NCBI RefSeq assembly: GCF_026151205.1
Contig: NC_087084.1
Span: 6,629,538-6,689,537, forward strand
Source: Bolinopsis microptera
Lineage: Eukaryota; Ctenophora; Tentaculata; Lobata; Bolinopsidae
Direction of reading: 5' to 3'
DNA: 60,000 nucleotides
The position numbers were made by a program, and so were the translations under genes. The notes under the pieces were generated by a model. That model made no database searches, had not been told where the DNA came from, and saw only the letters and a program-made list of their open reading frames with translations. This document shows, piece after piece, positions 233-57,160 of this stretch (positions are counted from its first letter, which is position 1; each line of letters opens with the position of its first letter).

Positions 233-3200
233 GGGGGGGGGGGGGGGTGACATGTCTCCAATGTCTCCAATGTCTTTTGTCTTTTTTGAAAAGATAGGGT
301 GCAGAGACATGTCCTGGAGACATTGGAGACATTGGAGACACAGCTTTTGGAGACATTGGAGACATTGGAGACATTGGGGACATTGGAGACATTGGAGACA
401 AAGTTTTTGGAGACATTGGAGACATTGGAGACACTGGAGACGTAGATGTATGATTGGAGAAGGAGGAGGATCTAGGAGGAGGATGACCCAGGAGGAGGAT
501 TCAGGAGGAGAAGGAGGAGGATGAGGACTCAGGAGGAGGACTCAGGAAGAGGACTGAGGAGGACTGAGAAGGATCAGGAGGAGGACTGAGGAGTACTGAG
601 GAGGATGGCTGAGGAGGATGGCTGTGGAGGATGGCTGAGGAGGATGGCTGAGGAGGATGACTGAGGAGGAGGACCTAGGAGGGGGAGGACCCAGGAGGAG
701 GAGGACCCAGGAGGAGGACTCAGGAGGAGGAGGACTCAGTAGGAGGACTCAGGAAGAGGACTGAGGAGGACAGAGAAGGAGGAGGACTGAGGAGTACTAA
801 GGAGGATGGCTGAGGAGGATGACTGAGGAGGATGACTGAGAGGTAGGAGGAGGAGAACAATGACTGAGGAGAAGGAGAAGGAGGAGGACCAAGGAGGATG
901 AGGACCCAGGAGGAGGACTCAGGAGGAAGAGGAGGAGGAGGATTCAGGAGGACTGAAAAAGAAGAGGACTGAGGACTGAGGAGGATGAAGAGGAGGAAGA
1001 CCCAGGAGGAGGAGGGATGAGGACTGAGGAGGAGGAGTAGGACTGAGGAGGAGAAGGAGGGGGACCTAGGAGGAGGAAGACCCAGAAGGAGGACTCAGGA
1101 GGAGGAGGAGGAGGAGGAGAACTCAGGAAAAGGACTGAGGAGGACTGAGAAGGAGGAGGACTCAGGAGTACTGAAGAGGATGACTGAGGAGGAGGAGGAG
1201 GAGGAGAAGGACTGAGGAGGAGAAGGAGAAGGTGGAGGAACTAGGAGGAGGATGAACCAGGAGGAGGACTCAGGAGGAGGACTCAGGAGGAAGAGGAGGA
1301 GGACTTAGGAGGAATGAGAAGGAGGAGGACTGAGGAGAACTGAGGAGGACTGAATAGGAGGAGGAGGAGAGGGACTGGGGAGGACTGAGGAGGAGGACTG
1401 ACGAGAAGGATGAGGAGGAGGACTGAGGACTGAGGAGGAAGAGGAGGATGAAGAGGAGGAAGAGGACCAAGGAGGAGGAGGACTGAAGAGGACAATGAGG
1501 ATGAGGACTGAGGAGGAGGAGAAGGACTGAGGAGGAGAAGGAGGAGGACCTAGGAGGAGGAGGACCCAGGAGGAGGACTCAGGAGGAGGACTCAGGAGGA
1601 GGACTCAGGAAAACTGAGGAGGAGGAGGAGGAGTGAATAGGAGGAGGAGGGGGAGGACCTAGGAGGAGGAGGACCCAGAAGGAGGACTGAGGAGGAGGAG
1701 GAGGAGGAGAACTCAGGAAGAGGACTGAGGAGGACTGAGAAGGAGGAGGACTGAGGAGTACTGAAGAGGATGACTGAGGAGGAGGAGGAGAAGGACTGAG
1801 GAGGAGAAGGAGAAGGTGGAGGAACTAGGAGGAGGATGAACCAGGGCCAGGAGGAGGACTCAGGAGGAAGAGGGGGAGGACTCAGGAGGAGGACTTATGA
1901 GGATTGAGAAGGAGGAGGATTGAGGAGAACTGAGGAGGAGGAGGAGGAGGAGGACTGACTAGGAGGAGGAGGAGGGGGACTGGGGAGGACTGAGGAGGAG
2001 GAGGACTGACGAGAAGGATGAGGAGGAGGACTGAGGACTGAGGAGGAAGAGGAGGAGGATGAAGAGGAGGAAAAGGACCCAGGAGGAGGAGGACTGAAGA
2101 GGAGGATGAGGATGAGGACTGAGGAGGAGGAGGACTGAAGAGGAGGATGAGGATGAGGACTGAGGAGGAGGAGGAGGACTGAGGAGGACTGAGGAGGATG
2201 GCTGAGGAGGATGACTGAGAGGGAGGAGGAGGACTGAGGAGGAGGAGGAGGAGAAGGACTAAGGAGGAGAAGGAGGAGGACCTAGGAGGAGGAGGACCCA
2301 GGAGGAGGACTCAGGAGGAGGACTCAGGAGGAGGAGGAGGACTGAGGAGGAAGACTCAGGAAAACTGAGGAGGAGGAGGAGGAGTGAATGGGAGGAGGAG
2401 GGGGACTGGGGAGGACTGAGGAGGAGGAGGACTAAGGAGAATGATGAGGAGGAGGACTGAGGAGGAGGATGAGGACTGAGGAGGAGGACTGAGGAGTACT
2501 GATGAGGATGGCTGAGGAGGACGGCTGAGGAGGATGGCTGAGGAGGATGACTGAGGAGGATGACTGAGAGGGAGGAGGAGGAGGAGGAGAAGGACTGAGG
2601 AGGAGGAGGAGGAGGAGGAGGAGGAGAAGGAGGAGGAGGACTCAAGAAGAGGAGGAGGACTCAGGAGGAGGACTCAGGAGGAGGACTGAGGAGGACTGAG
2701 GAGAACTGAGGAGGAGGAGGATGAGGATTGAATAGGAGGAGGAGGGGGACTGGGGGAGGACTGAGGAGGAGGAGGAAGACTGACGAGAAGGATGAGGAGG
2801 AGGACTGAGGAGGAGGACTGATGATTGAGGAGGAAGAGGAGGAGGATGAAGAGGAGTAGGAGGACTCAGGAGGAGGAGGACCCAGGAGGAGGAGGACCCA
2901 GGAGGAGGACCCAGGTCCCAGGAGGAGGACTCAGGAGGAGGAGGAGAACGACTCAGGAGGACTCAGGAGGAGGAGGAGGAGGAGGAGGAGGAGGAGGAGG
3001 AGGAGGAGGAGGAGGAAGAGGAGGAGGAGGAGGAGGAGTCTCCAAAAGCTGTGTCTCCAATGTCTCCAATGTCTCCAAAAGCTGTGTCTCTAATGTCCCC
3101 AATGTCCCAAATGTCCCCAATGTCTCCAATGTCTCCAAAAGCTGTGTCTCCAATGTCTCCAATGTCTCCAATGTCTCCAATGTCTTTGTCTTTTTCGAAA

Positions 3201-3260
3201 AGATAAGGTGCGGGAGACATTGGAGACATGTCACCCCCCCCCCCCCCCCCCCCCCCCCCC
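233..3260. mobile_element. G-capped foldback element 1 with purine satellite interior
   Basis: A run of 15 G (233-247) opens the element and a run of about 27 C (3234-3260) closes it. The 7-bp sequence CTTTAAC lies directly outside both ends (226-232 and 3261-3267) and is read as the target-site duplication. The left arm (248-450) and right arm (3039-3233) are inverted copies of a 9-bp unit, GGAGACATT, turned around a short core containing GAAAAGATA. Bases 450-3038 are a degenerate GGA/GGACTGA purine satellite. Proline- or serine-rich frames across it are translation artefacts. No transposase is present, so it must be non-autonomous if mobile. It lies downstream of the last confident SLC4 exon, perhaps in an intron. 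Confidence 0.75.
450..3038 (+). repeat. Purine-rich GGA/GGACTGA satellite (element 1 interior)
   Basis: The plus strand is almost purely purine with interspersed CT, built from variants of GAGGAGGACTGA, GGATGGCTGAG and GGACCCAGGAG. Blocks recur in the same order several times, implying local duplication. The same vocabulary fills the other two G-capped elements. Confidence 0.85.
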
Positions 3261-3691
3261 CTTTAACTACCTCGAGTCCTCGAGGTCCTTACTTTATTTT
3301 GTTGATACACAGGGTGTATCACATAAAATGTATAAATGCATAAAAAATAATGTATACATAAACAGCAGTTGGTAAGAAGTCACATTTTATTTGGAACACC
3401 CTGCAGTAAATGAAGAGCATGCAACTTACATGAACGTTACCTTCTAGTACGATCATTGCTCTTATCCTGATCAGGATACATGTATTTCTGAAATTATCTC
3501 AGTAGATTTATAGCCTCCTCAATCAACTGTCTGATCAGTTATTGCAACTGACAGTTATAATCAAGTTTAATCAGGTTTAATCAGCCATGATCAGCTATAG
3601 CGACTGACAGCTACAATCAAGAATTGGACGCAGATACCTTTTATAACCATAACTGCAACCACTTCGACCGGAATTGAAATTTTAAATGATA

Positions 3692-4291: not shown

Positions 4292-7200
4292 CTGTTAAGT
4301 TTATGCTTGAGGAACTGCGCAGTACTGGCTCTCCTTTTTCCGTCACTGACAGATGACTTCTTGTCCCCTCCATCCTTGCCGGAGCTGGATTCTTGAGATG
4401 CTTGTACTTCTTCAGATCCTGACGTTGTCTCCACATGTTTCGTTATTGCATCCAATACCTTGTGGAAAGAGTACTTCAAGCTGATTGTTTCTTTAATATG
4501 ACCTCATATTATCGTATTATAACCAAGGTCCAAGACGCAGGTTGTACAATAACCTCCAATCTCCATCCATTTATATTATATATGATTTTAAAATGGCTAC
4601 AACTATTAGCCTAGTTTTGTGCTTTCAGACTTCGATCAAGCTACCAAACAAATTCGATCAAACTATAAAAACATTGCGGATTCCATAAATGGAATTATTT
4701 TACCCTAACACCATCCTCCTCTTCCTCCTCCTCTTCCACAACGAGAGGATTGTTAAGAACAAAGTGAGCGGTAGGAGAGAGTGTAGGTCTGTCAAAATTT
4801 AGTTCGTGGAGTCCAACTGTTGACTTTCGGGGTTCCATGAATGAAACTGTCTTTCGGGAATTTAGACCTGAAAAAATTGGCTGGAAAGATCAGAACCAAA
4901 AGCAACATGCACTGAGGGGTTATTTAGTTATCCAACTCGGGCGCTTGAAGAAACAGCAGATAACGGAAAGCTTAACAAATTGAGCCATTAGATACTTATA
5001 ATAAAATACTGAAATTTTTTGTGATGTAGAACTCACCAGTCCGCTTCTGTTTGATCTCTTGCTCACATTTCATAAAATCCTGCTTCACTTTTTCTAGAAT
5101 GTTCGACACCAACTTGTCAGAAATTTCGGTTATCTCCCTCTCTTCTGCTGTTTCATTTGAGGAATTTCCTTGTTTTGCCTCATTTGAGTTATTTCCTTGT
5201 TTTGCCTCATTTGAGGTATTCCCTTGTTTTGCCTCATTTGAGTTATTTCCCTGTTTTGACTCATTTGAGGTCTTCCCTTGTTTTGCCTCATTTGGAGGTT
5301 GTATCTCATCCATTGTCTCCTCTGTGAGGGCGGGTAAAGTAGGTGCTTCACTCGCAACGTTAGTAAAAACACAAGACTCCAGATCTTCTGATTTACTCGA
5401 TCTCCCTGAAAAGTATGAAATTATGAAGAAATGGGAGGTTTTATTGCCGAGTCAACTATACTTAAATAACTAAAAACTAAATAATTCTGCTAAAACCACG
5501 GTGATATTATAATATAAGGAACTTAAGTGAATCTTATTAGTTACCTTTAAATTCATTAATTTTGAGCTGAAGCCTATCAAATATGCTCTGTCTACGCTCT
5601 GCAGCAGGATCGGAGATGTCTTTTGAGTAACCTTGTGAAGTGGATCTGGCTCCTGAAGTTGAACTGTGAGAATTACTTGATAGAAAATAATTCATATAAA
5701 ATTAATATATCTATAAATAAAATCGGAGTAAAGTAACTGAATTTAGATGAATCACTTTCAGCTTCTGTTGATTATCGTATTGATAATTATTTGTTACCAA
5801 ATGTTGGATCGAAAGAAGATATGCGACGTTGTATCTTCTTGAATCTTCCGAGATCCTCATCCGGGCAGCTAAGTCGTTTCTGAAATTAAATCACCATGAA
5901 GCATTCATTACTGATGAGATGCTACATAACATACTAAACAATAGACATACTAAACATACATAATATTATACACAACATAACATGCTAAATTCATAAGATT
6001 TATTATTGGTTCATAATTTTTTGAATTGTGTAAACTTTATTGGTTTGAAATTTGAATCATTATTGTGTAATTTTGCTAAATTGATCAAAATTAAACTTAT
6101 TATATCCGTTTATTATTGTATCACAGTATCAATAACTATAACAATATTATTATGACAATTTGCCAGGAAGTACTCCTATCGTGATTGCGATGCTATTTAA
6201 CGTTCAAGAGTCTTGATCAAAGCGTGTCCTAAATGTTACTTTTTCTAGAATTCCAAGCCCCAACGAAGATGGTTAATGTGTTTAACACGCTGTTTAACAC
6301 ATTGTTTCTTCTCTCTGGCCCTTTTGTTTGAATCAGCCGCAGATTCCTCACAATAGCGCCACTGATGAAATACAATGGAAGTAGCACTGAAACAGTGTTT
6401 CTACTGGTAGATTTGTCACTTGTATGTGAAATGTTACAGGTCACGGTAACATGGAACTGTTTTGTTATGCGGTAACATTGGTGGTTCTCGAACACACTTC
6501 ATCCTGGATTTAGACCTGAGTATCTTTAACATGCCCGAAACCATGATAAATGTTGTTTGAAATCAGACTGACGAAACTCTATAAATGAAGTGGCATCTCC
6601 TATTTAAATTCTTGTGATTTGATAGCCTAGAAGATTTGCCCCAAGAGAGTAATAATGCCAATGCCATCTCAGTAATTGCACTATGGGGGGGGGGGGGGTG
6701 TCATGTCCGTCTATGTCCGCCTATGTCCTGTCCTTTTTGGATTCTATGAGACAACGGACGTGTTTTTTGGGACATTGGCGGACACGGACGGACATTGGCG
6801 GACTCGGACGGACATTGGCGGACACAGACGGACATTGGCGGACACGGACGGACCCGGACGGACATTGGCGGACTCGGACGGACATTGGTGGACATTAGCT
6901 CAGGAGGAGGAGGACTCAGGAGGAGGACTGAGACGGAGGAGGACTGAAGAGTACTGAAGAGTACTGAGGAGGATGGCTGAGGAGGATGGCTGAGGAGGAT
7001 GGCTGAGGAGGGTGACTGAGGAGGATGACTGAGGAGGATGACTGAGAGGGAGAAGGAGGATCAGGAAGACCCAGGAGGAGTAGGAGGAGGAGCACCTAGG
7101 TGGAGGAGGAGGAGAACTGAGGAGGATGACTCAGGAGGAGGAGGACTCAGGAGGAGGACTGAGGAGGACTTAGGAGGATGGCTGAGGAGGAGGAGGAGAA

Positions 7201-10200
7201 GGACTGAGGAGGAGAAGGAGGACCCAGGAGGAGGAGGACCCAGGAGGAGGAGGACCCAGGAGGAGGACCCAGGAAAAGGCCCCAGGAGGAGGAGGAGGAC
7301 TGGGGAGGAGGAGGACGGACATTGGCGGACACAGACGGACATTGGCGGACACGGACGGACATTTGCGGACCCGGACAGACATTGGCGGACTCGGACGGAC
7401 ATTGGTGGACATTAGCTCAGGAGGAGGACTCAGGAGGAGGACTCAGGAGGAGGATTGAGGAGGACTGAGACGGAGGAGGACTGAAGAGTACTGAAGGGTA
7501 CTGAGGAGGATGGCTGAGGAGGATGGCTGAGGAGGATGGCTGAGGAGGATGACTGAGGAGGATGACTGATGAGGATGACTGAGAGGGAGAAGGAGGATCA
7601 GGAAAACCCAGGAGGAGGAGGAGGAGGAGGACCCAGAAGGAGGAGGAGGAGAACTGAGGAGGATGACTGAGGAGGAGGAGGACTCAGGAGGAGGACTCAG
7701 GAGGACTGAGGAGGATGGCTGAGGAGGATGGCTGAGGAGGATGACTGAGAGGGAGGAAGAGGAGGAAGAGGAGGAAGAGGACTGAGGAAGAGGAGGAGAA
7801 GGACTGAGGAGGAGAAGGAGGACCCAGGAGGAGGAGGACCCAGGAGGAGGACCCAGGAGGAGGACCCAGGAAAAGGCCCCAGGAGGAGGAGGAGGACTGG
7901 GGAGGAGGAGGACTGTTGAGGACTGATGAGGAAAACTAAGCACGAGGAGGAGAAGTAGGAGGAGGACTGAGGAGGGGAGAAGGAAGAGGACTGGGGAGGA
8001 TCAGGAAGACCCAGGAGGAGGACCCAGAAGGAGGAGGAGGACTGAGGAGGACTGAGGAGGAGGACTGACGATGACTGAGAAGGAGGAGGACTGAGGAGTA
8101 CTGAGGAGGATGGCTGAGGAGGATGACTGAGAGGGAAGAGGAGGAGGAGGAGGAGGAGGACTCAGGAGGAGAAGGAGGAGGACTGAGAAGGAGGAGGACT
8201 GAGGAGGAGGAGGAGGAGGACTGAATAGGAGGAGGAGGAGGGGGACTGGGCCGGGGAGGACTGAGGAGGAGGATGGAGGACTAAAAAGAAGGATGAGGAG
8301 GAGGACTGAGGACTGAGGAGGAAGAGGAGGAGGATGAAGAGGAGGAGGACCCAGGAGGAGGACCCAGGAGGAGGACTCAGGAGGAGGAGGAGGACTGGGG
8401 AGGGGGAGGACTGTTGAGGACTAATGAGGAGGACTGAGGACAAGGAGGAGGAGTAGGAGGAGGACTGAGGAGGGGAGGAGGAAGAGGACTGAGGAAAATC
8501 AGGAAGACCCAGGAGGAGGAGGAGGAAGAGTAGGAGGAGGAAGCATCTAAATGTTATTTCCATTTTTGTCCGTTTTTGTCCATTTTTGTCCGCTCTATTT
8601 TTTGTCCGTTTTGAAAATATAGGGTACCGAACGGTGGAGGAGGATTGAGGAGGGGAGGAGGAAGAAGACTGGGGAGGATCAGGAAGACCCAGGAGGAGGA
8701 TCCAGGAGGAGGAGGAGGAGGACCCAGGAGGAGGACTGAGGAGGATGAGGAGGACTGAGGAGGAGGACTGACGATGACTGAGAAGGAGGAGGACTGATGA
8801 GTACTGAGGAGAATGGCTGAAGAGGATGGCTGAGGAGGATGGCTGAGGAGGATGACTGAGAGTGAGGAGGAGGAGGACGCAGGAGGAGGACTCAGGAGGA
8901 AGAGGAGGAGGAGGACTCAGGAGGAGGACTTAGGAGAAATGAGAAGGAGGACTGAGGAGAACTGAGGAGGAGGAGGAGGATCAGGAGGAGGACTGAATAG
9001 GAGGAAGAGAAGGAGGGGGACTGGGAGAGGACTGAGGAGGAGGAGGACTGATGAGAAGGATGAGAAGGAGGACTGAGGAGGAGGACTGAGGACCGAGGAG
9101 GAAGAGGAGGAGGATGAAGAGGAGGAGGAGGACCCAGGAGGAGGGCTGAGGAGGACTGAGGAGGATGGCTGCGGAAGATGACTGAGAGAGAAGAGGAGGA
9201 GGAGGACTGAGGAGGAGGAGGAGGAGGAGGAGGACTGGGGGAGGACTGAGGAGGAGGATGGAGGACTGAGGAGAAGGATGAGGAGGAGGACTGAGGAGGA
9301 CTGAGGAGGAAGAGGAGGAGAATGAAGAGGAGGAGGAGGACCCAGGAGGAGGACTGAGGAGGAGGAGGACTGGGGAGGAGGAGGACTGTTGAGGACTGAT
9401 GAGGAGGACTGAGGACGAGGAGGAGGAGTAGGAGGAGGACTGAGGAGGGGAGGAGGAAGAGGACTGAGGAAGATCAGGAAGACCCAGGAGGAGGAGGAAG
9501 AGTAGGAGGAGGAAGCATCTAAATGTTATTTACATTTTTGTCCATTTTTGTCCGCTCTATTTTTTGTCCGTTTTGAAAATATAGGGTACCGAACGGACAA
9601 AAAACATGACCCCCCTATAACAGCAAAAATTTAACATTTTATTTAGCAATTTAGGTGTCCATTAATGTCCGTCTATGTCCGCCTATGTCCGCCAATGTCC
9701 GCATATGTCCGTCTATGTCCGTCTATGTCCGCCTATGTCCGCCTATGTCCGTCTATGTCCGCCTATGTCCGCCTATGTCTGCCTATGTCCTGTCCTTTTT
9801 GGATTCTATGAGACAAGCGGACATAGACGGACGTGACACCCCCCCCACTATGGCCCGACACTGTCACAGATAGAGTAAGATTTATAACGTGTGGTATTTA
9901 TTAAGACCACAATGGCTTTTAATGAGGTAACGAGGTGCACTACTGCTGTTGATAAACGTTGGGATACGATTGGTGAGCATATTTGTGTGTTTGGGGCGTA
10001 ACGTTGCCTGTTGGCGCCCCCCCCCCCCCTCCCCCCTGTTGGCGCCGACACCCCCCCCCCCCCCTGTTGGCGCCCCCCTCCCCCCCCCCCTGTTGGCGCT
10101 TCCCCCGCTGAAAAAGTGCCCCCCTGTTGGCGCCCCCCCCCCCCCTCCTCTGTTGGCGTCCTGATATATGAAACTGTATTGTAATTGTAATATAATGAAC

Positions 10201-27747: not shown

Positions 27748-28010
27748 TATACACAGGAGGGGCTAAGTGCAAAGAAACTGCTGCTAACTGCTGCTCACTG
27801 CTACTAACTGCTGCTCACTGCTGCTCACTGCTACTAACTGCTGCTCACTGCTGCTCACTGCTACTAACTGCTGCTCACTGCTGCTCACTGCTGCTCACTG
27901 CTACTAACTGCTGCTCACTGCTGCTGTCGCGCGCGCGCCCATAGCAGCAGTGAGCAGCAGTGAGCAGCAGTGAGCAGCAGTTTCTTTGCACTTAGCCCCG
28001 CCTGTGTATA
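27748..28010. mobile_element. Small foldback element with CTGCT repeat arms
   Basis: TATACACAGG(A/C)GGGGCTAAG and on through GTGCAAAGAAACTGCTGCT is present at the left and, inverted, at the right. Inside, each arm is an array of CTGCTGCTCA/CTGCTACTAA units meeting at a (GC)n centre near 27927. It has the same plan as the G-capped elements, with tandem repeats in inverted arms, but a different sequence and no G-run. Confidence 0.7.
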
Positions 28011-28894: not shown

Positions 28895-29003
28895 ATGTGG
28901 CGTAACGAAAGGCCCCGCTGTGCGGGGGGGGGGGGGGGGGGTCATCTTAGGAGGGGGCACCAAATGGGGGGGGGGGGCGCCAACAGGCAACGTTACGCCA
29001 CAG
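28895..29003 (+). mobile_element. Short hAT-like MITE (GTGGCGTAACG family)
   Basis: GTGGCGTAACGAAAGGCC opens it and GGCAACGTTACGCCAC closes it, as in the 289-bp copy at 48831. Between them are two G-runs of about 20 and 12 bases. It is an internally deleted relative of that copy. Confidence 0.7.
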
Positions 29004-29298: not shown

Positions 29299-29730
29299 GG
29301 TAACACGACATCTGTCCGACAGCGACATCTGTCCGACAGCACTATTTTCTTGTGTTTGAAGTGATATCTCAAATTTGACACATAGAAATTCACCCAAACT
29401 TGCACAAATTATTTGTCTTAAAGCTATCTTACTATCTAGAAAATTCAAGAAAATCGTATCGTTGGATCTCCAGATATATGCCTTGGTACCACTGCAAACC
29501 ACCGAATTGGAGATATTTTTTGTGTTTAAAAGGTGATATCTCAAATTTGGCACATAGAAACTCGCTCAAACTTACACAGATTATCCGTCCTATAATCTAT
29601 AACCACCATACTTTATGGAAAGTTTCAAGAAAATCGTACGGTAGGATCCGAGTTCCGACATAAACTATTGTCCGAATAACCTATTTTCTGAGTCGGACAG
29701 ATGTCGCTGTCGGACAGATGTCGCCCAATC
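29299..29730. mobile_element. 432-bp TIR element with 9-bp duplication (Mutator-like size)
   Basis: AAAAATTAC flanks both ends (29290-29298 and 29731-29739). A 32-bp perfect inverted repeat made of two GACATCTGTCCGACAGC-type units lies at 29306-29337 and, inverted, at about 29692-29723. Internally, a segment of about 170 bp (GTGATATCTCAAATTTG onward) is duplicated in tandem. There is no coding capacity. A 9-bp duplication is typical of Mutator-like elements, but no transposase supports the assignment. Confidence 0.65.
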
Positions 29731-34500: not shown

Positions 34501-37500
34501 TTCTTATTTTAACTTTATCAAATTTTATTTTAAAATTTGTACCAGAAACATCGATTATAACTAAGCTTGTAAATGTAAAACGTATAATATGTCAACGCCT
34601 TACTTTTTAGTAATAGAGTGAATGTGAAATACCCGAATCTTTACCAAAAGTCCATGCATATCTCATATTTTAACAATGTCCATACATTGTGTTTTCATCA
34701 AATGCATCTTGATTCTCGAACCAAAGACGCTTGCATAATAAATCATATTTTCAATTTCCTTTTTAATATCCATCAAATGATAGCACTCACATTCTCACAA
34801 TCCTTACACATTACACAACAAGCTACTATACAATGATTGAATAAAATAACACCACCATATTTTAAACTGAAATTTGTGTTTGAGTGCTCCGACATTGCGC
34901 ACAACAATGCTTACAGCCCCCCCCCCCCCCCACAAGCCATGCAATTACTCAAACTCAATAGGTCTGGATACTGGTGGAGAGAGGTGAACCATATCTCACA
35001 CGTGACAGCACATATCAGACACGTGACAGCACATATTGGACACGTGACAGCACATATCGGACACGTGACGGCACATATCGGACACGTGACAGCACATATT
35101 ATCGGACACGTGACAGCACATATCGGACACGTGACAAGAATGCTGAGATTTCATTTGTCACAGGTGATCGCTGATTGGTTAAAACTTTAAAATAACCGTC
35201 ACGTGTCCCCACTGGTATCCAGATCAACTCGGTCTACATAGCAATCAACTACTCAACTACCATGCGGCTAATGCACTAGGAATATTTGACATGACCATAT
35301 AAGGAATAATAGGAATGTGGAACGTTTCATCAGTGAGAAGAGCTTGTGACACATTGTGAAGATAATATGCTTTTGAGTGCGCTACTTGGCTTTATTCGAG
35401 TTTGAGTACAAAATAACAATGGTTATCTTACTGTGCTTACTCAAACTGTGTCATATCCTTTACAAATGCATAACGACAAAAAACGTTCAAATTAAAAAAC
35501 GAAACAATTAACCAATTAACCAATTATAAGCTAATAAAGTTAATTACCTGGGAGGAAACATTCTTGTTCTCGTAAACAGAATGGTACATTCTCTGAGGCG
35601 GAGGGTATTGACAATCTGGAGCAACATAGTCCTCATCTACCATGCCAGGGAGGGACACGTGGGAATCTGCACTGTTCTGAAACAGTGTGATCTAGTGGCT
35701 GTTAGTACTTGGTCTAATACAGTACTACTTGGTCTAGTACTTGGTCTAATACAGTACTACTTGGTCTAGTACTTGGTCTAATACAGTAGTACTTGGTCTA
35801 GTACTTGGTCTAATACAGTACTACTTGGTCTAGTACTTGGTCTAATGTAAGCAGTCACCATCTGCTCCAGATTCGTAGATTATTTGTATCAATTTAAGGT
35901 ACGAACAACGAAAACAAGAGTAATAACGATGGTTACAAGATATTAAACTATAAAACAATACAATGAATAATTCGACAAACTCCTGCTTTAACTCCTAGTT
36001 CACCAGACTTATATTGCCCAAAATCGCCCACCGATCTAATGATCTTATCCTACCATAACATATCACATCATGAAATACAATCACTATACACATACTATAG
36101 CCAGACATACTATTATATTATATAAAGTCGGCCGTCAATACTTGTCTATATTCACGCTGAAACTCCTAGCTTAAATCCGCCATGACCCATGCCATTATGT
36201 CTACTATCAATCCCTCTCTAGGCCAACCAGAACTCAACCAGAGTTACAGGTTCCGACCACCAACTATCCTTCGATAGGACAAACCACCAACTCTCTCTCT
36301 CCCAGTTCAGGCTCCCTTACAGTCCGGCATCAATGACACTCCATCGAATCGGGAAAACTCAATCTCCTTCTCGACCGTCCGTCCGACCTTATATATTCCT
36401 CGACCAGCCCTGTATGTGCCGCACCAAAATACGGCCCGCCTATGCTGTATGCTCCGAAAACTCATTATTCTCTATTAAATGCATTCTAATCTATAGCACG
36501 CACTGTCTTGTCAACAAGTCTGCCTGATTTTCTCGTGCTCCCTGGTGCTTATTCAACCAACATCGAACTACAGGCCGTCTAATTTTATCTATGATTATCA
36601 TTAATTCCCTACCAGTATTTTCAGCCACTACCCTCATCACACTTCCGTCGTGTTCTTGCCATAAGCCTTTACATGCTCGTTGCACAATGATTATTTCGGC
36701 CGCTACTAATGATAACTCCGCATTCTCTTAAGTAATCGGTTAATATTATAAATCTATATAATTTAACTTAATAATGATACTTCCAGAAAAATTGACTCAA
36801 AATATCCACTGCGTACACAACTTTACAAAATATGATATTTTTTTGAACCTTACTATAATAGTATACAAATTTAATAGAAAATCTCGAACTAAAGACCCTA
36901 TACCTTGCCCGATCACGGCTTACACAACTTATAACAACCCACTCAAAATCTGATCTTTCTTAGAACCCTACTATACTGGTATAATAATTTACACTCCTTA
37001 AAAACTCCTTCCTGCACTTCCTCAACATTTTAAAATCACAAATTTTTAGAACCCAACTATAATAATTTAATTACAACTCACAATTTCTAAACGTTTTTTT
37101 TTAAATGTGTCCATTTCAATCTCGTCTCTTCTTACCCGTGTCTTGTTCGTCGTTCAGAATATCCTTATCTGGCCTTCTGTTCCATGTCTTTGTTCGTCGT
37201 TCAGCACATAACTTTTTATCTTCGCTTAGGATATCAGCAATCATCTCCGATATCTTCGGTGGTCTCCGATTTATGCTTTCATGCGACCTTCAATCAACGT
37301 GTCCTCCAATCTTGTCTCCGATCTATGATTCCATGCATTTTCCAATCGATGTGTCCTTCAATCTTTCCGTTTTCGTTTTCTACTCCTTTCTTGACCTTTG
37401 TGTCTCCATCCAAGATAAATGCCTCCGCCCAGGGTATTAGCATTTGTACCCAACCTTGTGTCTCCATCCAGTATATCCGCATTTTGTCCCCCTACACTGT

Positions 37501-40500: not shown

Positions 40501-43500
40501 TTGGTCGCAATTTCGCCAGCCCACTCCAAACTCCCCCTCTCGCTCTCTTCCATAATATAAAATATGTAGCGCTACAAAAAGAAAACAAGTCTGACACACA
40601 ACAGAACGATTCAGCAGGCAGCCACTCCTACTGAGGCTCTGGTGGCTGAAAGTATGTCAAGTCTGCCGTCTTAAAACTTAAAATCAGAAACAGTAAACCA
40701 TGAACTGCTCACGTACCCCCTCGATAATAATTATAACATTCTCTCGATAAAATCTCTCAACGGACTGATATTTATTCCTCAAAATATCCCCTCTGCTCCT
40801 CCTAACCTATGCCCCTCCGGTACCTAACCTTCCTTCCCTTACATGATGAAAGAAACCCAAAAATTGCATTTAAACTCCACACTTAACCGTGTCTTCATTT
40901 ACTGCTCTTGCACTGAACTAATCGATGACCCTAATCTGACTGGCAACACTGTTACAACGTAACGTAACTCTACTCCTCACACCGGTCAATTCACATTCGA
41001 ATGATAAGCAATCTCTCCCTTACCTCAATTAAAATACAAATAATCTATCCTATAATAAAGTAGGATCCTACCGTTCGCGCCATTGTAAGCAGTCACCATC
41101 TGCTCCAGATTCGTAGATTATTTGTATCAATTTAAGGTACGAACAACGAAAACAAGAGTAATAACGATGGTTACAAGATATTAAACTATAAAACAATACA
41201 ATGAATAATTCGACAAACTCCTGCTTTAACTCCTAGTTCACCAGACTTATATTGCCCAAAATCGCCCACCGATCTAATGATCTTATCCTACCATAACATA
41301 TCACATCATGAAATACAATCACTATACACATACTATAGCCAGACATACTATTATATTATATAAAGTCGGCCGTCAATACTTGTCTATATTCACGCTGAAA
41401 CTCCTAGCTTAAATCCGCCATGACCCATGCCATTATGTCTACTATCAATCCCTCTCTAGGCCAACCAGAACTCAACCAGAGTTACAGGTTCCGACCACCA
41501 ACTATCCTTCGATAGGACAAACCACCAACTCTCTCTCTCCCAGTTCAGGCTCCCTTACAGTCCGGCATCAATGACACTCCATCGAATCGGGAAAACTCAA
41601 TCTCCTTCTCGACCGTCCGTCCGACCTTATATATTCCTCGACCAGCCCTGTATGTGCCGCACCAAAATACGGCCCGCCTATGCTGTATGCTCCGAAAACT
41701 CATTATTCTCTATTAAATGCATTCTAATCTATAGCACGCACTGTCTTGTCAACAAGTCTGCCTGATTTTCTCGTGCTCCCTGGTGCTTATTCAACCAACA
41801 TCGAACTACAGGCCGTCTAATTTTATCTATGATTATCATTAATTCCCTACCAGTATTTTCAGCCACTACCCTCATCACACTTCCGTCGTGTTCTTGCCAT
41901 AAGCCTTTACATGCTCGTTGCACAATGATTATTTCGGCCGCTACTAATGATAACTCCGCATTCTCTTAAGTAATCGGTTAATATTATAAATCTATATAAT
42001 TTAACTTAATAATGATACTTCCAGAAAAATTGACTCAAAATATCCACTGCGTACACTAATACAGTACTACTTGGTCTAATACAGTACTACTTGGTCTAGT
42101 ACTTGGTCTAATACAGTACTACTTGGTCTAATACCTTAATACAGTACTACTTGGTCTAGTACTTGGTCTAATACAGTACTACTTGGTCTAATACAGTACT
42201 ACTTGGTCTAATACAGTACTACTTGGTCTAGTACTTGGTCTAATACAGTACTACTTGGTCTAGTACTTGGTCTAATACAGTACTACTTGGTCTAGTACTT
42301 GGTCTAATACAGAACTACTTGGTCTAGTACTTGGTCTAATACAGTACTACTTGGTCTAGTACTTGGTCTAATACAGAACTACTTGGTCTAGTACTTGGTC
42401 TAATACAGTACTACTTGGTCTAGTACAGTACTACTTGGTCTAGTACAGTACTACTTGGTCTAATACAGTGCTACTTGGTCTAGTACTTGGTCTACTAATA
42501 ATTGGTCTAGTGATTGTTAGTACTTGTACTTGGTCTAAGACTTGGTCTAGTGGTTGTTAGTACTTGATCTACTACTTTATGTAGTATATTGTGTATTATC
42601 AATAAGTTACTCACTGTAGAGTGTGTAGTCATGGGACGTAGCTCAATGTCACCAGGTGTCACGGAGAACATCTTCTGAAATATAGAACTTTGTCACCACA
42701 TTGTCACCTCATTGGCACCACATTGTCACCACATTGTCACCACATTATCACCAGTACCACATTGTCACCACTTATCAATTTAATAATATTGTGGTTTTAT
42801 ATTAATTATACGAATATAAACCCCGATCTCATAACTAACATAGTCATAATCTAACATAAATCCCTTGGATATCAATAATCCAATTACATAGTGTGTCCTC
42901 AACAGCTTACATACATTCTTCAGCTTCAGCTACAAATGACAAACCATACTGTAACTGAAGAGTCTTATTGTATCAAAATTGAAATACTGTGTAAATTTGA
43001 TTTAAATTTAAATTCTAATAAGGGGTCGTTCACATATTATTACGTAGTCAGCCGAGGGGGGAGGGGTTTCTTCCCAAATGATTACGGTTGATTATGGGGG
43101 GGGGGGGGGTGGGGGGGGGTTGGCTGTTGATTACGCTGATTACCCTCTAGAATAATAACAATTTGACAATATTTTAATTCAAATTCCACTCAATTTCACT
43201 CTGATAAGTGATAGTGATACAATTTAGGAATGGATCGGGTATCTGGCTGCTAAAGTAAGTAGTTTGGAAGGTGCTTGGCCGGATATCATAACAATGATCT
43301 CGGCTCATAATGATCAGGATCTGCATGAAACGTAGAGAAAAGTGTTTTCAAAGTGAAAAAAGTCGAAAGGGGGGGGGGGGGGGGGGGATCAGGCCATGAT
43401 TACGTAATTTTGCTGTCGTCAGTCCATACATAACATCACGTGACGTCATAACATCACGCGACTTCATTGTTCGGGTTTTGTGCTTTTTAAAGGAATACAT

Positions 43501-46500
43501 ATAATATTATATAATGTTGACACTCATCATTAATAATTGCTGAATAATTAAATTCTGTGTAACGAAGATTTCATTTTCCAGCTTCGGCTTAAAGTTAAGG
43601 CCACAGGGGCCACTAGGGGGGGGGGGGGGGGGGGGGGGTCCGAGGTCAATTTTGAGATTTTGAGATATGTTGTAGAGCTCGATCTAAATTTTTAAATGCT
43701 TTTGTCCTTACCGAAAACAAAGTTTCCTATTTGAAGATATCTCGCGTTGAATTTTGAGGTTTACCTGTAATTCTATTGTAAATGAAAAATGTATATGAAA
43801 TTGTGTTCAAAATCTATCTTCTTTTTCAGTTTATGACTTAGAACCTTGTAACTTGGCAACAATGTTCTTCAAGGTATTTTGAGTTTTTGCTATGTAACGA
43901 TTTATGATATCTTGCTCCAAAGCTGAGATATGAGGTTAACCATGAGTGCGGTTTACAAAATTTAAAACGGTTAACCTCATAAAAAGAGTTAGGAGCAAAA
44001 TTACAACAATCGTTACATAACAAACTTTTAAATTCATGTCAGGAACATAAGTTCCAAATTTGAGGTGAAATGGATAAAAGCTCTAGGAGAAGATAGGTTT
44101 TTGAGGTGGTAAATAAATTGTTCAGGAGAGTCAAAAGACTGATTCTGAGAAAATATGTTAACCTCAATTTTCCAACAAATAAAGGACATATAATAGTTCT
44201 GTTCACATTGGATGGCCAATTGATACCCATTGATAAGTTTAACTTGTGATGAGAGCAACAAAATGTTAAGAACTGGTTATTTGTGAGGTTAACTGATTAA
44301 AAACTAAAAAGGCAATAGTTAACCTCAATTTTACGAAAAACTAGGCGCTCTGGGGGGCTAAGGGTGTTGTGCAATCGTCAGATAGTACGTGGTCTGCCAA
44401 CTGGCAAAAAACGTTTTTTCGACCTCGGACCCACCCCTGTGGCCTTAAAGCTGTGTCCAACCGATTGTGTTTGACCATTTTATTTCTGACAACTTAAAAG
44501 CTCAACAAGAATTGCGCCCGTTGTTTCGTTTTGGCAGACGCTAGATTTCCATTTCACATTTGCTATACATTTAAGTATAAGCTCCAATCAGCTCACTTCA
44601 ATCTTCATGATAATAATATTGATAAATTATGCATCAAATACGGGAAACACTTGAAATTCAGTTCAATTGCCGTAGAACTTAACTTGTATCTGTAATTCAA
44701 GAAATTATCAGCAAAGGTAAAACTATACTCGTGTACACATCAATACACTACGCGTGCCACGTACAAATTGGGCGTATTACCTGATAGTAATATTATACAT
44801 TACATGCATCGTATACATTAAAACACAGCCGCGCATTCATAGATCACAGGCTATCTATACATCACATCTCCGCAAGCAATCCTCGCGCGCGCGCGACTTT
44901 TTCGTTGCATGGTAACGGACGAAATGACACCATATTCAGACCCGCCTAACGCGATCTCCAAAATCCACGTTTTTCTGCCAAAACCTCCATTCGTAACCTT
45001 TCACTATTGCCTTTTTTCAAAAGGGTGAAAAGGAAAAAAATCTATCATGCCCCACACAAACCGTTTTTAACGTCCTACGTACACTAAAAACCCGATTCAC
45101 CGTACAGTTTGCGGGAAAAGAAAATAGTAAATTGGGGTTTTACTGTAAGTGGTTTCGAGAAAAAAGAAATCGTCAGGTTCCTGTTCAGAGCGTGACGTCA
45201 TGGTCGATATTGCGAAATCCTTATTAGAGGCCATTATATTTCTACTGCATGGGGTTGACTATTAAGTTTCTATAAAGGAGGTGGTTGGCAGAGCCACCTG
45301 TATTTAATTGCTACCTATTCACAAACTTTATAATGTCATTTTATTTAAATATCACTATGATTTTAGCTAATCTAAGCGGAAGAAGGACAAACATGCCTGT
45401 GCTCGATGTTTGGCTTCAACACACACCAATGATGCTGAGAATTCAAGAACACATAATGCGGCTGCTTATGATTGTCCTGTGTTGGTAAGAGAAACTAAAC
45501 GTATTGCTGCTAACACTGACTTTATTTCAAAAAACGTAATGTGAAATTAGGTGCTAATCGACAGAAATCACAGCTTTCTATTGGTTGTTTCAACGCAAGG
45601 TCTCTATGCAACAAAACTTGTGGCGTACTAGAAATGCTTAAGGATAACTCGATCTCTATCTGTTGTATCACGGAAACTTGGCTTAAATCTAATGATCGGG
45701 CAAAGTTTGCCGAAATTCGTTATTTTGGGTTTGATATTATCAGTGCCCCTCGAAGAGGTAGGGGAGGTGGTGTTGGTTTTCTCTTCAACCCCAAAGTTAT
45801 TTCGCCTGTACGCAATGATGTTACTAAATATTCATCTTTTGAAGTACTTGAATGTGTCATTAAAACTGCTGGTGAGGTTATCAGGCTATGTGTAGTTTAT
45901 CGCAGCACTCAGGCCAAAACAAAATATGATGAAACAAAAATATCTAAGTTTATGGATGACTTTGATGGATACCTGGACAATCTTCTGCTTAAAACTGGAT
46001 CTCCAATTATTTGTGGTGACTTTAATTTCCATGTTGAAGACCTAAACAATAATGTTGCCCAGAACTTTATTGCCCTTTGTGAGAGCAAAGGCTTCCTTCA
46101 GCATGTCGACTCTCCTACTCACATCTCTGGCGGGACACTGGACTTGTTATTTACTCTAGGCTGTGTAAGTGACTCATTGTCTGGAACAGATATGATGGTA
46201 GAGACAAGCACTGGAACCAGCTCTGATCACTATCTAGTAAGTTGTCAGATCCCAGTCTCATTCGATTTTCATAAAGCTCGTACATATGAAGAAAAAGATG
46301 TCAGAGAGCTAAGCAAAATTGACATCGATAAGTTCAGGGAAGATCTGTTTTGTTCAGAGCTTAACCTTTCTGAATATCAATCCTTGGACGAGGCTGTGAA
46401 CCTTTATCAAAATGTCCTTGAACAGGTGCTGGACAAACATGCCCCACTTATTACGAAACGATTTACTGCTGAAAAGTCTGATTTTTGGGATGAAAAATGT

Positions 46501-49500
46501 CAAATTGCTGTCAGAGAGAGAGGAGAAGAGCAAAACGAAAAGCCAAAAAGTATCCAGAGAATGATGAGTTTAAAACTACTCACTTTGAAAAGTGTGTTGA
46601 CGCAGAAATCACCATCAATCGAGCTAGAGATAGCTACTATGATAAACAGCTCAGTTCTTGCAAAGGAGACTCGAAAGGGACCTACAAAGTCATAAATAAA
46701 CTTTTAGATAAAGAATATGGCTCCAACAAACTGCCAAATGGTGAAGATATCGAAGTGGCTGAAAAACTCAAGACTTTCTTCGACAAAAAAGTAAAAACCA
46801 TTTACTCTAATATCGAGAAGGAAATTCAAAACACTTCCCTTAACGGTCAAGGTACCAAAAACTCTACTTCGATAGAGAATACAAAGTGTAGACTTGATCA
46901 GTTTAAGGAAGTCTCATTATCAGAACTTGAAACATTAATTAAGAGTCTTCCCAATAAATCAAGCGTACTCGATGTCATACCAATGTGGCTCTTCAAGAAC
47001 TGCTTACCCGAGCTTCTCCCAATCATCCATATTACATCGTGAATGAATCACTAAGAGTTGGAAAGTTTCCATCTGCCCTAAAAGAAGCATCTATAAGGCC
47101 TGGACTCAAGAAACCTACATTAGATGTTGATGAGCTGAAAAACTATCGACCGATTAGCAATCTAACCTATCTGTCAAAAATACTAGAAAAAGTAGTTCAT
47201 TGCCAATTAAATGAATATGCTGATGTCAACAACCTATTTTCCCCATATCAATCAGGCTATAGAAAATTCCATAGTTGTGAAACTGCAGTTACAAAGATAC
47301 ATAATGATATTCTAATGATGATTGATAGCAAATCGAATGTTGTGCTTCTACTCTTAGATCTATCAGCTGCTTTCGACACCATAAACCATAATCTCCTTCT
47401 TACGAAACTCAAGAATGCGTATGGTATTACAGAACTAGCACTCAGCTGGTTACAATGTTACCTTAATAATCGCACATTCAAGGTTAAAGTTAAAAAAGCC
47501 ACATCTTCTGAATGCTATCTGGATATTGGTGTACCTCAAGGATCCATTTTAGGACCACTACTGTTCATATTGTATACCAGAGATCTTGAGGAAATTGTCA
47601 CAAAATATGGTTTCTCGATACATTTGTATGCAGATGACACACAGGTGTACTTTGCTTTCGATGTTCACAGTTCTAATCCTGATTTAACAGCTGTGAAAAA
47701 TTGCTTTCTGGAGATAAAGCAATGGATGACAGTTAACTTCCTAAAACTGAATGATGAAAAAACAGAGTTCATTGATATAGGACCATATGTCAGCCCAATC
47801 CAGACAATGGATTTAGGAGACCTCTCAATCTGTCCTGTTAGCAAGGCCAAGAACCTGGGATTCCTTTTCGATCACCAAATGAATCTGGACTCTCAAATAA
47901 ATGCTGTGTCCAAAGTATGTTATTTGAATCAAAGGGACTTATCAAGAATCGGTTCAAAGCTTTCCCATGAACTAAAAGTTCAGTTAGTTCACTCCAATAT
48001 TCTCTGTTTCATAGACTACTGCAACTCAGTCTATTATGGTATAACAGAAAAGAATCTCCATAAGCTACAAAAGATACAGAACAATGCTGCTAGATTTATC
48101 TTTGGTCTTTATGGAAAAAAGATACGTGAACCTATCATGCCTTACCTCAAAAAGCTCCACTTTCTACCTGTTCGGTTCAGAATCAAGTTCAAAATATCAC
48201 TTCTGGTCTTCAAGTGTCTTAATAACATAGCCCCTCAGTACTTACAAGGACACATCAATCTAAGGGAAGTACGAAGACAAAGTTCCAGACTAGATGATGA
48301 CTTTTATTTGTTGAAAGTTCCTCCTGCTCCTCATTTCAGACGAACGGATGCTGCATTTATGTTTTGTGGACCAAAAATTTGGAATGAACTACCCTACTCA
48401 GTGAGATCATTATCATCTGTAGAATGTTTTAAAAATGCGCTAAAGACGTTTTATTTCCACCTAGCTTTTGATAACATTTCTAATATTTGTCCATAAAGTC
48501 TGAACTGATATGAAAGTGCATAATTTTGGGAACTTCATACAAATATTTGTTCATAAAATCTGATCTGATAAAAAGTCCATAATCTTGGTATTTCAACACT
48601 AAGTCTCGCTTGAATGACTTAAATGTACATCTTTGTTGGGTATATTTTAATGTCGAAGCGTGTAATAAATGTTAGAATTTATTTATTATTTATAATCTAC
48701 AAGCACTTAACTGGGGACCCCGGCTATAATGTTCATAATCATGTAATAAAGAATACAAATTCGGCGGAATGGCAGGCTGAGCGTGGCCCAGTGAACAAGC
48801 ACCTGCTCAAATTGCCTTTTAAATTCAATCCAGTGGCGTAACGAAAGGCCCTGCTGACCCCGCTGTGCAGGGGGGCGCCGTCTTAGGGGGGCGCCAAATC
48901 GTCGTTTGAATGTGGGACAATTTCGAAAACTTAACTAAAGTACTAGCAAAACTGCGCGTTTTGCTCTAGATACACACTTTTTTAGAGATTTTACCGGCGT
49001 ATTCTTTAAAATCACCTAATTTGTTCAATTTTAGGGAGGGGCACCAAAAGGGGAGGGGGCGCCAACAGGGGGGCGCTTTTTTCGGCAGGGGGGCGCAAAC
49101 AGGCAACGTTACGCCACTGATTCGATCATTAAATCGATTCAATGATTTTGTCTCCTAACAGCAGAATAGGCATTAGTGCCATAATATATTTGATTTTGCC
49201 ATCACAAATATACATGTACTAATACAGTAACAAGTAGTATATTTCGTAAAATCTCGCTTAATTACCCTCTCTATACGTAGCAAATTATTTGCAGCTGACA
49301 CACATGGTAATGAACACAACTGCCTCAGATTTTTAATCTTTGACAATAAAAAGCGTAATTTTTCTTTGCCAATTGTACTGTGCATGACTACTTGTGGTAA
49401 GCCAGTTTCTGTGCAATTCGAAATTGCATCGATTAATATTTTATTTTTGTTATTTTTTATTTAGGGGTCGTTCACATATTACGTAATCAGCGGAGGGGGA

Positions 49501-54679: not shown

Positions 54680-57128
54680 ATGAAACTTGCAACATTACTG
54701 ATTCTGTTGAAACTTGGTACTCCACAGAGTACTACACCATTAATCACAAGTAAATACAAATCAAAAGCTTGGTCCGAAGTTCCAACTTCAATTATCCAAG
54801 GTAATTATATCACTTATATTATTACGTATACAAATTAAAATCGACTACTACATCAGTTTAAAGACAGTAATTTTTGTTTTGGGTAATTAATGGAATTACG
54901 TTAGCTTAGGGGGGGGGATCATGTTATTTTTTGTCCGTTTTTGTCCGTTTTTGTCCGTTAATTTTTGTCCGTTTTGAAAATATAGCTGCCAAACGGACAA
55001 AAACGGACAAAAACGGACAAAAACGGACAAAAATTGTAACTTTTGATTTAAATTTTCTCCACAATTTGTAACAGGCTATCTGCAGAAATGGGTAGCCCGG
55101 TTAATGACCATGGTCCTTTCTCAAACTTTTAATCTTCAATTAGGCACAAAGAATAGTCTACACATTTTTTAATAACATAAAAAGGGATGAAAAGTTTTAT
55201 TACTGGAGAGTAAAACTTTCTTAAACACAAAGATTCTTGAGCACATTTTGAGTCAGACTCAAATGCGCTTAAAAACATTTTAGTATATAACAATAAATTA
55301 TGTTAACAATAACACCAACAATAATTATAAATTGAACAAATTATTGAGAGATGAAAGAGAGGAAAAGGAGGAGGGGGGACTGAGGAGGGGGACTGAGGAG
55401 GGAGAGGAGGGGGGCTGAGGAGGAGTGAGACTGAGAAGGAGAACTGAGGAGGAGGAATGAATAGGAGGAGGAGAAGAAGGACTCAAGAGGAGGAGGACCC
55501 AAGAGGAGGAGGACCCAGGAAAAGGCCCCATGAGGAGGACTGGGGAGGAGGAGGACCGATGAGGACTGATGAGGACTGATAAAGAGGACTAAGGACGAGG
55601 AGGAGGAGGAGGAGGAGTAGGAGAAGGAGTGAGCAGTGAGGAGGAGGACTGATGAGGAGAAGGAGGTGTATGATCTGAGGAGGATGAGGAGGAGAAAGGA
55701 GATAAAGGATGAGGATAAGGAGGACTGAGGAGGAGGACTGGTGAAGAGGAGTGATGAGGAGGAGGACTGAGAAGGGGAGGACTTAGGAGGACTGAGGAGG
55801 GGAGGACTTAGGAGGAAGAGGAGGATTGAGCAGGAGGAGGACTGAGGAGTAGAAGGAGGAAGAAGACTGAGGAGGATCAGGAGGACCCAGGAAGAGGAGG
55901 AAGAGGAGGAGGACTGAGGAGGAGAAGGAGGACCCAAGAGGAGGAACCAGGAAGAAGAGGAGGAGGAGGACTGAGAAGGAGGAGTGAGACTGAGAAGGAG
56001 AACTGAGGAGGAGGAATGAATAGGAGGAGGAGGAGAAGAAGGACTCAAGAGGAGGACTGAGGAGGGGAGGACTTAGGAGGAAGAGGAGGATTGAGCAGGA
56101 GGAGGACTGAGGAGTAGAAGGAGGAAGAAGACTGAGGAGGATCAGGAGGACCCAGGAAGAGGAGGAAGAGGAGGAGGACTGAGGAGGAGAAGGAGGACCC
56201 AAGAGGAGGAACCAGGAAGAAGAGGAGGAGGAGGACTGAGAAGGAGGAGTGAGACTGAGAAGGAGAACTGAGGAGGAGGAATGAATAGGAGGAGGAGGAG
56301 AAGAAGGACTCAAGAGGAGGACTGAGGAGGAGGAGGACTAATGAGAAGGATGAGGAGGAGGACCCAAGAGGAGGAGGACCCAAGAGGAGGAGGACCCAGG
56401 AGGAGGACCCAGGAAAAGGCACCAAAAGGAGGACTGATGAGGAGGATGAGGATGAGGAGGAGGGTGACTGGGGGAGGACTGAGGAGGAGGGTGACTGGGG
56501 GAGGACTGAGGAATATGAGGAAGACTGAGGAAGAGGAGAAGGACTGAGGAGGAGAAGGACTGAGGAGGATGACTGAGGAGGAGGAGGACTGAGGAGGAGG
56601 AGGAGGACTGAATAGGAGGAGGAGGGGGACTGGGGGAGGACTGAGGAGGAGGAGTACTGACGAAAAGGATGAGGAGGAGGACTGAAGAGAAGGACTGAGG
56701 ACTGAGGAGGAAGAGGAGGAGGATGAAGAGGAGGAGGAGGACCCAGGAGGAGGAGGACTGAGGAGGATGATGAAGACTGCAGAGGAGGAGGACTGAGGAG
56801 GACTGAGGAGGACTGAGGAGGATGGCTGAGGAGGATGGCTGAGGAGGAGGAGGAGGAGAAGGTGGAAGAGGAGGAGGAGGAGGAGGAGGAGGAGGAGGAG
56901 GAGGAGGAGGAGGAGGAGGAGGAGGAGGAGGAGGAGGAGGAGGAGGAGGAGGAGGAGGAGGAGGAGGAGGAGGAGGAGGAGGAGGAGGAGGAGGAGGAGG
57001 AGGAGGAGGAGGAGGAGGAGGAGGAGGAGGAGGAGGAGGAGGAGGAGGAGGAGGAGGAGGAGGAGGAGGAGGAGGAGGAGGAGGAGGAGGAGGAGGAGGA
57101 GGAGGAGGAGGAGGAGGAGGAGGAGGAG

Positions 57129-57160
<32 letters not shown>

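Follow-up and report, generated by a model that had tools for sequence, protein, structure and literature searches.

G-capped elements with purine satellite cores in Bolinopsis microptera are probably sister families of non-autonomous foldback transposons

The window, the whole 60,000-nucleotide stretch of DNA that was analysed (contig C13, positions 6629538-6689537, in an assembly of 264.65 Mb and 232 contigs), contains three elements of common layout: E1 (233-3261), E2 (6685-9846) and E3 (54909-57312). Each consists of a G run, a folded arm, a GGA/GGACTGA satellite, a second folded arm and a C run. The question raised by this arrangement is whether the elements grew in place from simple repeats or arrived by insertion and, if inserted, what kind of transposon they are. 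We put a probability of roughly 0.87 on the view that they are foldback DNA transposons from sister families, non-autonomous and dependent on a transposase supplied in trans. A preliminary description of the locus had reported the same plan, and its coordinates agreed with ours within a base or two; caps, arms and purine core were all present. The features are listed below in window coordinates.

227-232, no strand: left copy of the E1 6-bp duplication, TTTAAC
233-247, + strand: E1 G cap, 15 G
248-441, + strand: E1 left arm, 9-bp TGGAGACAT units with central module TCTTTTTTGAAAAGATAGGGTGC; hairpin 248-345, z -8.99
456-3038, + strand: E1 GGA/GGACTGA satellite core
3038-3233, + strand: E1 right arm and hairpin, module oriented as on the left; z -7.24
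3234-3261, + strand: E1 C cap, 28 C
3262-3267, no strand: right copy of TTTAAC
6680-6685, no strand: left copy of the E2 6-bp duplication, ACTATG, whose last G is shared with the cap
6685-6698, + strand: E2 G cap, 14 G
6699-6896, + strand: E2 left end (type A), hairpin and array of 10-bp GGACATTGGC units; z -5.41
6904-9513, + strand: E2 satellite core with interruptions, namely arm-like arrays inside it (7313-7413 among others) and a stretch of E3-type end sequence around 8559-8635
9527-9615, + strand: inner E3-type right end in E2 (TTTTGAAAATATAGGGTACCGAACGGACAAAAAACATGA, then C6)
9660-9838, + strand: E2 right end (type B), arm and hairpin; z -5.33
9839-9846, + strand: E2 C cap, 8 C
9847-9852, no strand: right copy of ACTATG
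48831-49125, + strand: uninterrupted relative of the target repeat of element L038; TTTAAA present once, without G or C run
54902-54908, no strand: left copy of the E3 7-bp duplication, TAGCTTA
54909-54917, + strand: E3 G cap, 9 G
54918-55036, + strand: E3 left hairpin, TTTTTGTCCG units around TTTTGAAAATATAGCTGCC; z -12.1
55037-55365, + strand: E3 unique non-satellite segment
55366-57153, + strand: E3 GGA satellite core
57175-57291, + strand: E3 right hairpin, module oriented as on the left; z -7.69
57292-57312, + strand: E3 C cap, 21 C
57313-57319, no strand: right copy of TAGCTTA

A search of the assembly for G-capped ends, such as the preliminary description had proposed, recovered the families. 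The pattern G8NNNCAYGTC, which covers the E1 and E2 end types, had 901 matches in the genome, whereas the reversed pattern had 54. For E3, the left end gave 63 matches and the right end 28, each against none for its reversed-pattern control, and the type-B end of E2 gave 329 against none when at least one cap G was demanded. The three families are large, with copies numerous and far above chance. Among the matches listed, 93 places of G8NNNCAYGTC lay on contig C1 and few on C2, and the C1 places formed 34 plus/minus pairs within 7 kb. These pairs and one from C2 were examined as the E1/E2-type sample; with the neighbouring elements L046 and L047 and the three window elements they make up a set of 40. 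For the E3 type 23 pairs were formed; the flanks of 20 were examined and, with the window copy, give a set of 21.

Open reading frames of at least 100 amino acids overlapping E1, E2 or E3 were, as judged by eye, encoded by the repeats themselves, and to this extent the claim that the elements lack coding sequence held. Most copies lack coding capacity, judging from frames that were listed by length and inspected for the window and for some of the other copies; part of these frames were also scanned with Pfam. Otherwise the window has the content of animal DNA, with domains of the LDL-receptor class A type and a LINE that encodes endonuclease and reverse transcriptase.

Uninterrupted relatives of the targets were found for two elements. 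The joined flanks of L038, an E2-type element, are identical at 292 of 297 positions to window positions 48831-49125, where the TTTAAA hexamer occurs once and both the G run and the C run are absent. A second relative of this target, in L048, is identical at 281 of 301 positions, with a hexamer one base different. The target of L022 has a relative in L046 (239/287 identical), also without caps and with a single hexamer that differs by one base. Since the caps are absent from the uninterrupted targets, they came with the insertion or were made by it. The expectation that an empty site would hold one copy of the duplicated sequence was thus borne out as to copy number, whereas the copy is a 6-mer, not a 7-mer, and in the L022 relative one base differs. 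A supposed empty site for E1 within the window, at position 133, was discarded: its match to the left flank covers only about 8 bases, too few to serve as proof. That the elements arose by local expansion of tandem repeats without transposition, as their simple-repeat cores might suggest, has a negligible probability: the matching duplications of 6 or 7 bp and the uninterrupted target relatives refute it. Insertion, as opposed to local expansion, had also been the earlier conclusion.

The duplications had been described as three different 7-bp repeats, CTTTAAC, ACTATGG and TAGCTTA, of a single family. TAGCTTA of E3 is a clean 7-bp duplication. The other two are 6 bp long without cap letters: CTTTAAC is TTTAAC plus one C of the C run, and ACTATGG is ACTATG, its first G being common to the duplication and the cap and its second a match to the G run. 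E1 and E2 were therefore read as 7 bp because a cap letter had been lent to the duplication.

When the tabulation of duplication lengths was carried out on our sample, a 6-bp duplication was present in 34 of the 39 E1/E2-type elements, exactly in 26 and with one shared cap letter in 8; the exceptions were L014, L026, L031, L035 and L047. If no cap letter was lent, the set of 40 had 6 bp in 25, 5 bp in nine, 7 bp in one (E3), 1 bp in three and no duplication in two, one of which, L024, has 6 bp with a corrected right end. In control pairings of mismatched flanks 6 bp occurred in 7 of 1560 and nothing longer was seen; when a cap letter could be shared at the left or the right, at least 6 bp occurred in 20 of 1560. 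Lending one cap letter per side (before the L024 correction) left 16 of the 40 elements at 6 bp and extended 17 to 7 bp and one to 8 bp, so that 16 of 40 cannot be read as 7 bp even on these terms. The 21 E3-type elements had 7 bp in 12, 6 bp in four, 8 bp in one, 5 bp in one and none in three, against a maximum of 4 bp in 420 mismatched pairings. Three of the four with 6 bp (L071, L081 and L091) become 7 bp, as read by eye, with one shared cap letter. From these counts it follows that the stagger goes with the end type, 6 for E1/E2 and 7 for E3, and the single family with 7-bp duplications has to be given up.

The 34 E1/E2-type targets are varied and AT-rich. Most are NNTANN, with a central TA in 26 of the 34 duplications against a TA frequency of 0.091 in the window sequence between the elements. 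The duplications of E1, E2 and E3 types are mostly not centred on TTAA.

All six ends of E1, E2 and E3 fold as separate hairpins made of short inverted units (z from -5.3 to -12.1), and at each end none of 200 shuffles folded as well. The module at the hairpin centre does not follow the inversion of the ends around it: it points the same way on the left and on the right of an element. It looks similar in all three types, with TC, a few T, GAAAA and ATAG in E1 and E3 and a weaker version in E2. The similar module suggests that E1, E2 and E3 types are probable sisters despite their different arm units.

Copies of one family are closely alike. A type-A or type-B motif of E2 was present in 62 of 80 ends, and the consensus was matched without mismatch over the outer 66 bases in 26 of 31 and over the outer 56 bases in 27 of 31 E2-type ends; these ends were picked by motif, which favours conserved ones, and the type-A and type-B sets contain one diverged outlier each. 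A 336-base segment of E3, comprising the unique segment and the 7 bases before it, was 98-100% identical in 40 scored places of 251 candidates, the window copy included. The near-identity of the E2-type ends and of the E3 segment indicates that the families moved recently.

The caps vary widely. In the set of 40 they range from 6 to 36, and beside the near-identical E2-type ends from 8 to 36, a lower limit partly built in by the choice of pairs with at least 8 G (7 for E3), and E3-type caps reach 47. Left and right cap lengths are uncorrelated (rho 0.06, p 0.73, n=40). Type-B ends on C1, for which a single cap G sufficed in selection, had at least 8 G in 28 of 31. One explanation is that transposition itself rebuilds or lengthens the caps through a step resembling terminal transferase or slippage. 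Near-invariant E2-type ends beside widely variable caps, the lack of left-right correlation, and the at least 8 G in those 28 of 31 ends against 4-6 in inner E3-type ends would agree with it. We nevertheless hold it to be very unlikely, as two observations fit slippage after insertion. Outside the elements, in 51,405 bases of the window and 55,189 bases from element flanks and five other loci, 24 G/C runs have length 6, one each has length 7 and 8, and thirteen reach 9 or more, which leaves a gap at 7-8 followed by a tail; 12 of the thirteen longest sit in the window, however, and the slippage argument draws on a small and uneven sample. A/T runs outside the elements fall off steadily except for one of 14 and one of 43. 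Moreover, in L044/L045, a single insertion present in duplicate copies, the caps differ: 30 versus 9 G, and 53+23 versus 20 C. Given the gap at 7-8 outside the elements, cap length is probably a product of slippage, and homopolymer assembly error may contribute to the run lengths. A slippage threshold at about 8 and a requirement for at least 8 G at working ends both explain the cap facts; inner runs of G4-6 were rejected as a sign that caps grow at active ends only, the threshold explaining them equally well.

The caps are not peculiar to these families: other elements also end in G runs, and long G runs occur elsewhere. An inverted-end family with TTCACCC termini and G-run ends gave 710 matches against none for the control, up to two mismatches being allowed, with 14 pairs spanning 0.5-3.4 kb among those listed on C1-C3. 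L051/L052 is an element of about 0.37 kb with G-run ends. It is conceivable, if rather improbable, that E1/E2, E3, the TTCACCC family and the 0.37-kb element form one unrecognised lineage, defined by termini of at least 8 G required for transposition, a 6/7-bp stagger and an exchangeable satellite core. If G-run termini were required, transposon ends of a new kind would have been found.

The satellite cores have phrases in common. The longest exact strings shared between pairs of E1, E2 and E3 cores were 60, 46 and 48, against maxima of 53, 42 and 42 when each pair was simulated 60 times with an order-6 Markov model; the margin is small yet consistent in all three pairs, and what they share is more than plain GGA repeats. 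Three GGACTGA units occurred at 54 places in the genome. Eight loci were examined, though L004-L007 are overlapping cuts from a single part of contig C3, and seven of the eight carried arm sequence of the E1-E3 kind. In the eighth, L008, the satellite is flanked by inverted arrays of an unrelated 171/172-bp repeat. Conversely, in L099 an E2-type end is followed by an array of 502-bp units. In 28 of 30 E2-type pairs among L009-L043 there is an inner E3-type end whose G or C run is 4-6 long; no match was obtained in L011 and L041. This inner end appears to be the fossil of an E3-like element. Cores with foreign arms, arms with foreign arrays and the inner E3-type ends together argue that cores and arms have recombined between families.

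A full-length relative with a transposase and the same ends was also looked for. Searches with PF20700, hAT and PF21787 and inspection of the long capped copies found no autonomous element with E1-E3 ends in this genome. Long or one-ended capped copies contained longer satellites or other tandem arrays (e.g. L099), and in the capped copies L019, L050 and L102 retroelement frames were recognised by eye.

Three superfamilies were weighed as the source of the mobilising transposase. A Kolobok-like enzyme (PF20700), as encoded in the capped L044/L045, is an unlikely candidate. PF20700 had 18 matches in the genome, five of them on C1. L044/L045 has caps at both ends, a PF20700 match with E 4.3e-15 and TCATGT adjoining one cap; one end, a G run plus TTCATGTC, resembles E2 and E3 ends, and among 19 hAT and five PF20700 matches on C1 its two duplicates alone lie within 10 kb inward of a G8NNNCAYGTC cap. 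If the duplication is taken as CTTAAG, it has 6 bp and a central TA that fits NNTANN, but TTAA is an equally good reading. The ends of L044/L045, judged by eye rather than by folding, lack hairpins of the E1-E3 type, the other end of L044 (TTCACCCTGA) belongs to the TTCACCC type with its 710 ends, and the TTCATGTC end has only 2 exact copies, both in one segmental duplication. The other PF20700 element with determined ends, L095/L096, which also has a THAP domain, is flanked by TTAA adjoining AGGTGCACACC ends and fits Kolobok as described in PMC9587614. With only the two L044/L045 matches of the five on C1 near a cap, and TTAA at L095/L096, PF20700 was set aside as the obvious partner.

The second superfamily is hAT, searched for by its domain PF05699. 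The target of hAT Buster elements is nnnTAnnn, so that the central TA of our targets would suit a hAT lineage with short duplications, and a hAT domain lies within a 3.4-kb end pair of the G-capped TTCACCC family (C2:19845492-19848888). That pair is of a different end type, one of 14 listed, with 37 hAT matches on C1-C3, and the domain may be a nested insertion. The hAT duplication is 8 bp, not 6 or 7, and none of the 19 scored C1 matches was within 10 kb inward of a G8NNNCAYGTC cap (150 of 365 candidates were scored, and those on C1 were compared with E1/E2 caps). A hAT origin is distinctly unlikely.

PF21787, which we take to be the P-type RNase H, had no match in the genome, and the control genomes likewise gave none. 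The duplication of the P element is 8 bp. Membership in the P superfamily, in the manner of Galileo, is doubtful: E1 and E2 duplicate 6 bp, although Galileo, as described in PMC3573991, has a matching repetitive foldback architecture and, like E3, duplicates 7 bp.

For the foldback reading that we favour, we propose the following mechanism. A DDE-type transposase supplied from elsewhere would bind the repeated end units or the module and attach the ends to target DNA cut with a stagger of 6 or 7 bp, which repair would turn into a duplication. The two lengths could come from a pair of related transposases or from one enzyme in two forms. The satellite core would be a passenger, expanded between the arms and transferred from family to family by nesting and recombination, of which the E3-type end within most E2-type copies may be a trace. 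The caps may have started as a G-rich terminus of about 8 bases and been lengthened by polymerase slippage once past a threshold.

Satellite DNA would then be carried and spread as the cargo of foldback transposons. The same kind of purine satellite lies between three related sets of arms and, at one locus, between an unrelated set. Such cargo offers a route by which dispersed satellites could be seeded, and perhaps fragile sites, because purine tracts, G runs and hairpins stand together in one element. Sister families with like end architecture and staggers of 6 versus 7 bp would make the link between transposase and stagger testable.

How do these elements relate to known systems? They have the marks of foldbacks: foldable arms of short repeats, target duplications with empty sites, and mostly no coding sequence. 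Foldbacks with repetitive arms are a structural kind that may stem from several lineages (PMC4079207). Galileo, a foldback of the P superfamily in Drosophila, makes 7-bp duplications (PMC3573991). It resembles our elements in its repetitive arms, in copies consisting of little but repeats and in the duplication length of E3, and differs in that E1-E3 have G/C caps, a hairpin at each end and a purine core, and E1/E2 duplicate 6 bp. Tetris of Drosophila virilis, with 8-10 bp duplications and a link to satellites (PMC4079207), is similarly non-autonomous, has tandem repeats tied to satellite DNA and lacks a detected autonomous partner. In Tetris internal tandem repeats, one of which is TIR-220, feed satellite arrays; unlike this, the satellite of E1-E3 is the middle of the element and common to families with different arms.

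Composite arms of short tandem repeats with variable length are known from FB, a foldback of the Mutator type. Tm1, the Mutator-type foldback of root-knot nematodes, has such arms as well, with duplications of 8-10 bp, mostly 9 (PMC3169594). Its terminal motifs are other than ours, and E1-E3 have G caps and duplications of 6 or 7 bp, outside the range of Mutator-type foldbacks. Kolobok has RR..YY ends and duplicates TTAA (PMC9587614). G..C ends satisfy RR..YY trivially and a capped Kolobok-like element, L044, exists in the genome, but the 4-bp TTAA duplication is not that of E1-E3. Dada shares duplications of 6-7 bp; it targets small RNA genes, and Dada-U6 and Dada-U1 have no terminal inverted repeats (PMC3706591), whereas our elements have inverted ends and 34 varied AT-rich targets. 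IS3EU/GingerRoot duplicates 6 bp, as E1/E2 do, with TA..TA and occasionally TG..CA termini (PMC10045372), in contrast to G..C in E1-E3.

In the literature searched, mostly papers available without subscription and with Repbase outside the scope, we recognised no description of G-capped foldbacks. The earlier statement that no known family combines these traits agrees with this, except that the 7-bp duplications named in it are not general. Thus the foldback kind is known, and what looks undescribed is the end structure together with a shared satellite core and two duplication lengths.

PF20700, the Kolobok-like transposase domain considered as a rival partner for the window's G/C-capped foldback elements (E1, E2 and E3), is carried by the following elements at other loci (L, with their own coordinates; C, contigs) of the same assembly:

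L044:404-5285 (C1:1677000-1683000) and L045:146-4762 (C1:1715000-1721000), G/C-capped element with Kolobok-like transposase, segmental duplicates
L095:1491-5756 and L096:1296-5573, Kolobok-type element, 4.3 kb, well preserved

In the L044/L045 element the transposase is split into several pieces, and one end has direct repeats nearby. The L095/L096 element encodes a THAP + PF20700 protein, its copies are 99% identical, and TTAA adjoins its ends.

Another family of G-capped inverted ends, GGGGGGTTCACCCTGATTTTTTTG, has 710 ends; among the pairs listed, one (C2:19845492-19848888) contains a hAT domain. Other loci of the assembly hold:

L051:4017-4390 and L052:4026-4406, small inverted element with G/C caps and CCAATGACTAC ends
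L008 with L104/L105, C3:9079300-9093300, GGA satellite flanked by inverted arrays of a 171/172-bp repeat
L099:1353-4161, tandem array of a 502-bp unit (246-bp half-unit) behind an E2-type capped end

The small element is nested in a larger repeat, at the same position in both copies. The GGA satellite structure is foldback-like, with a core of the same kind as that of E1-E3 and different arms; its ends were not found within C3:9079300-9093300. A LINE end, judged by eye, adjoins it.

The window itself holds further features:

36222-36524 and 41460-41762, identical 101-aa open frames
57337-60000, open frame (stop to stop), 888 codons, LDL-receptor class A domains
45520-48493, LINE with endonuclease and reverse transcriptase domains
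10017-10145 and 28924-28977, opposite strands, a further homopolymer-bearing repeat in which TGTTGGCGCC-like words alternate with runs of C or G
27748-28010 and 29306-29724, inverted arrays of ACTGCTGCTC units and CGACATCTGTCCGACAG units
48831-49125, ~300-bp repeat CAGTGGCGTAACG...CGTTACGCCACTG, several relatives

The identical frames are an intra-window duplication. The 888-codon frame starts 25 bases past the C cap (terminal C run) of E3 and reaches the window end. The inverted arrays are further foldback-like pieces, and the ~300-bp repeat resembles a hAT-type MITE.
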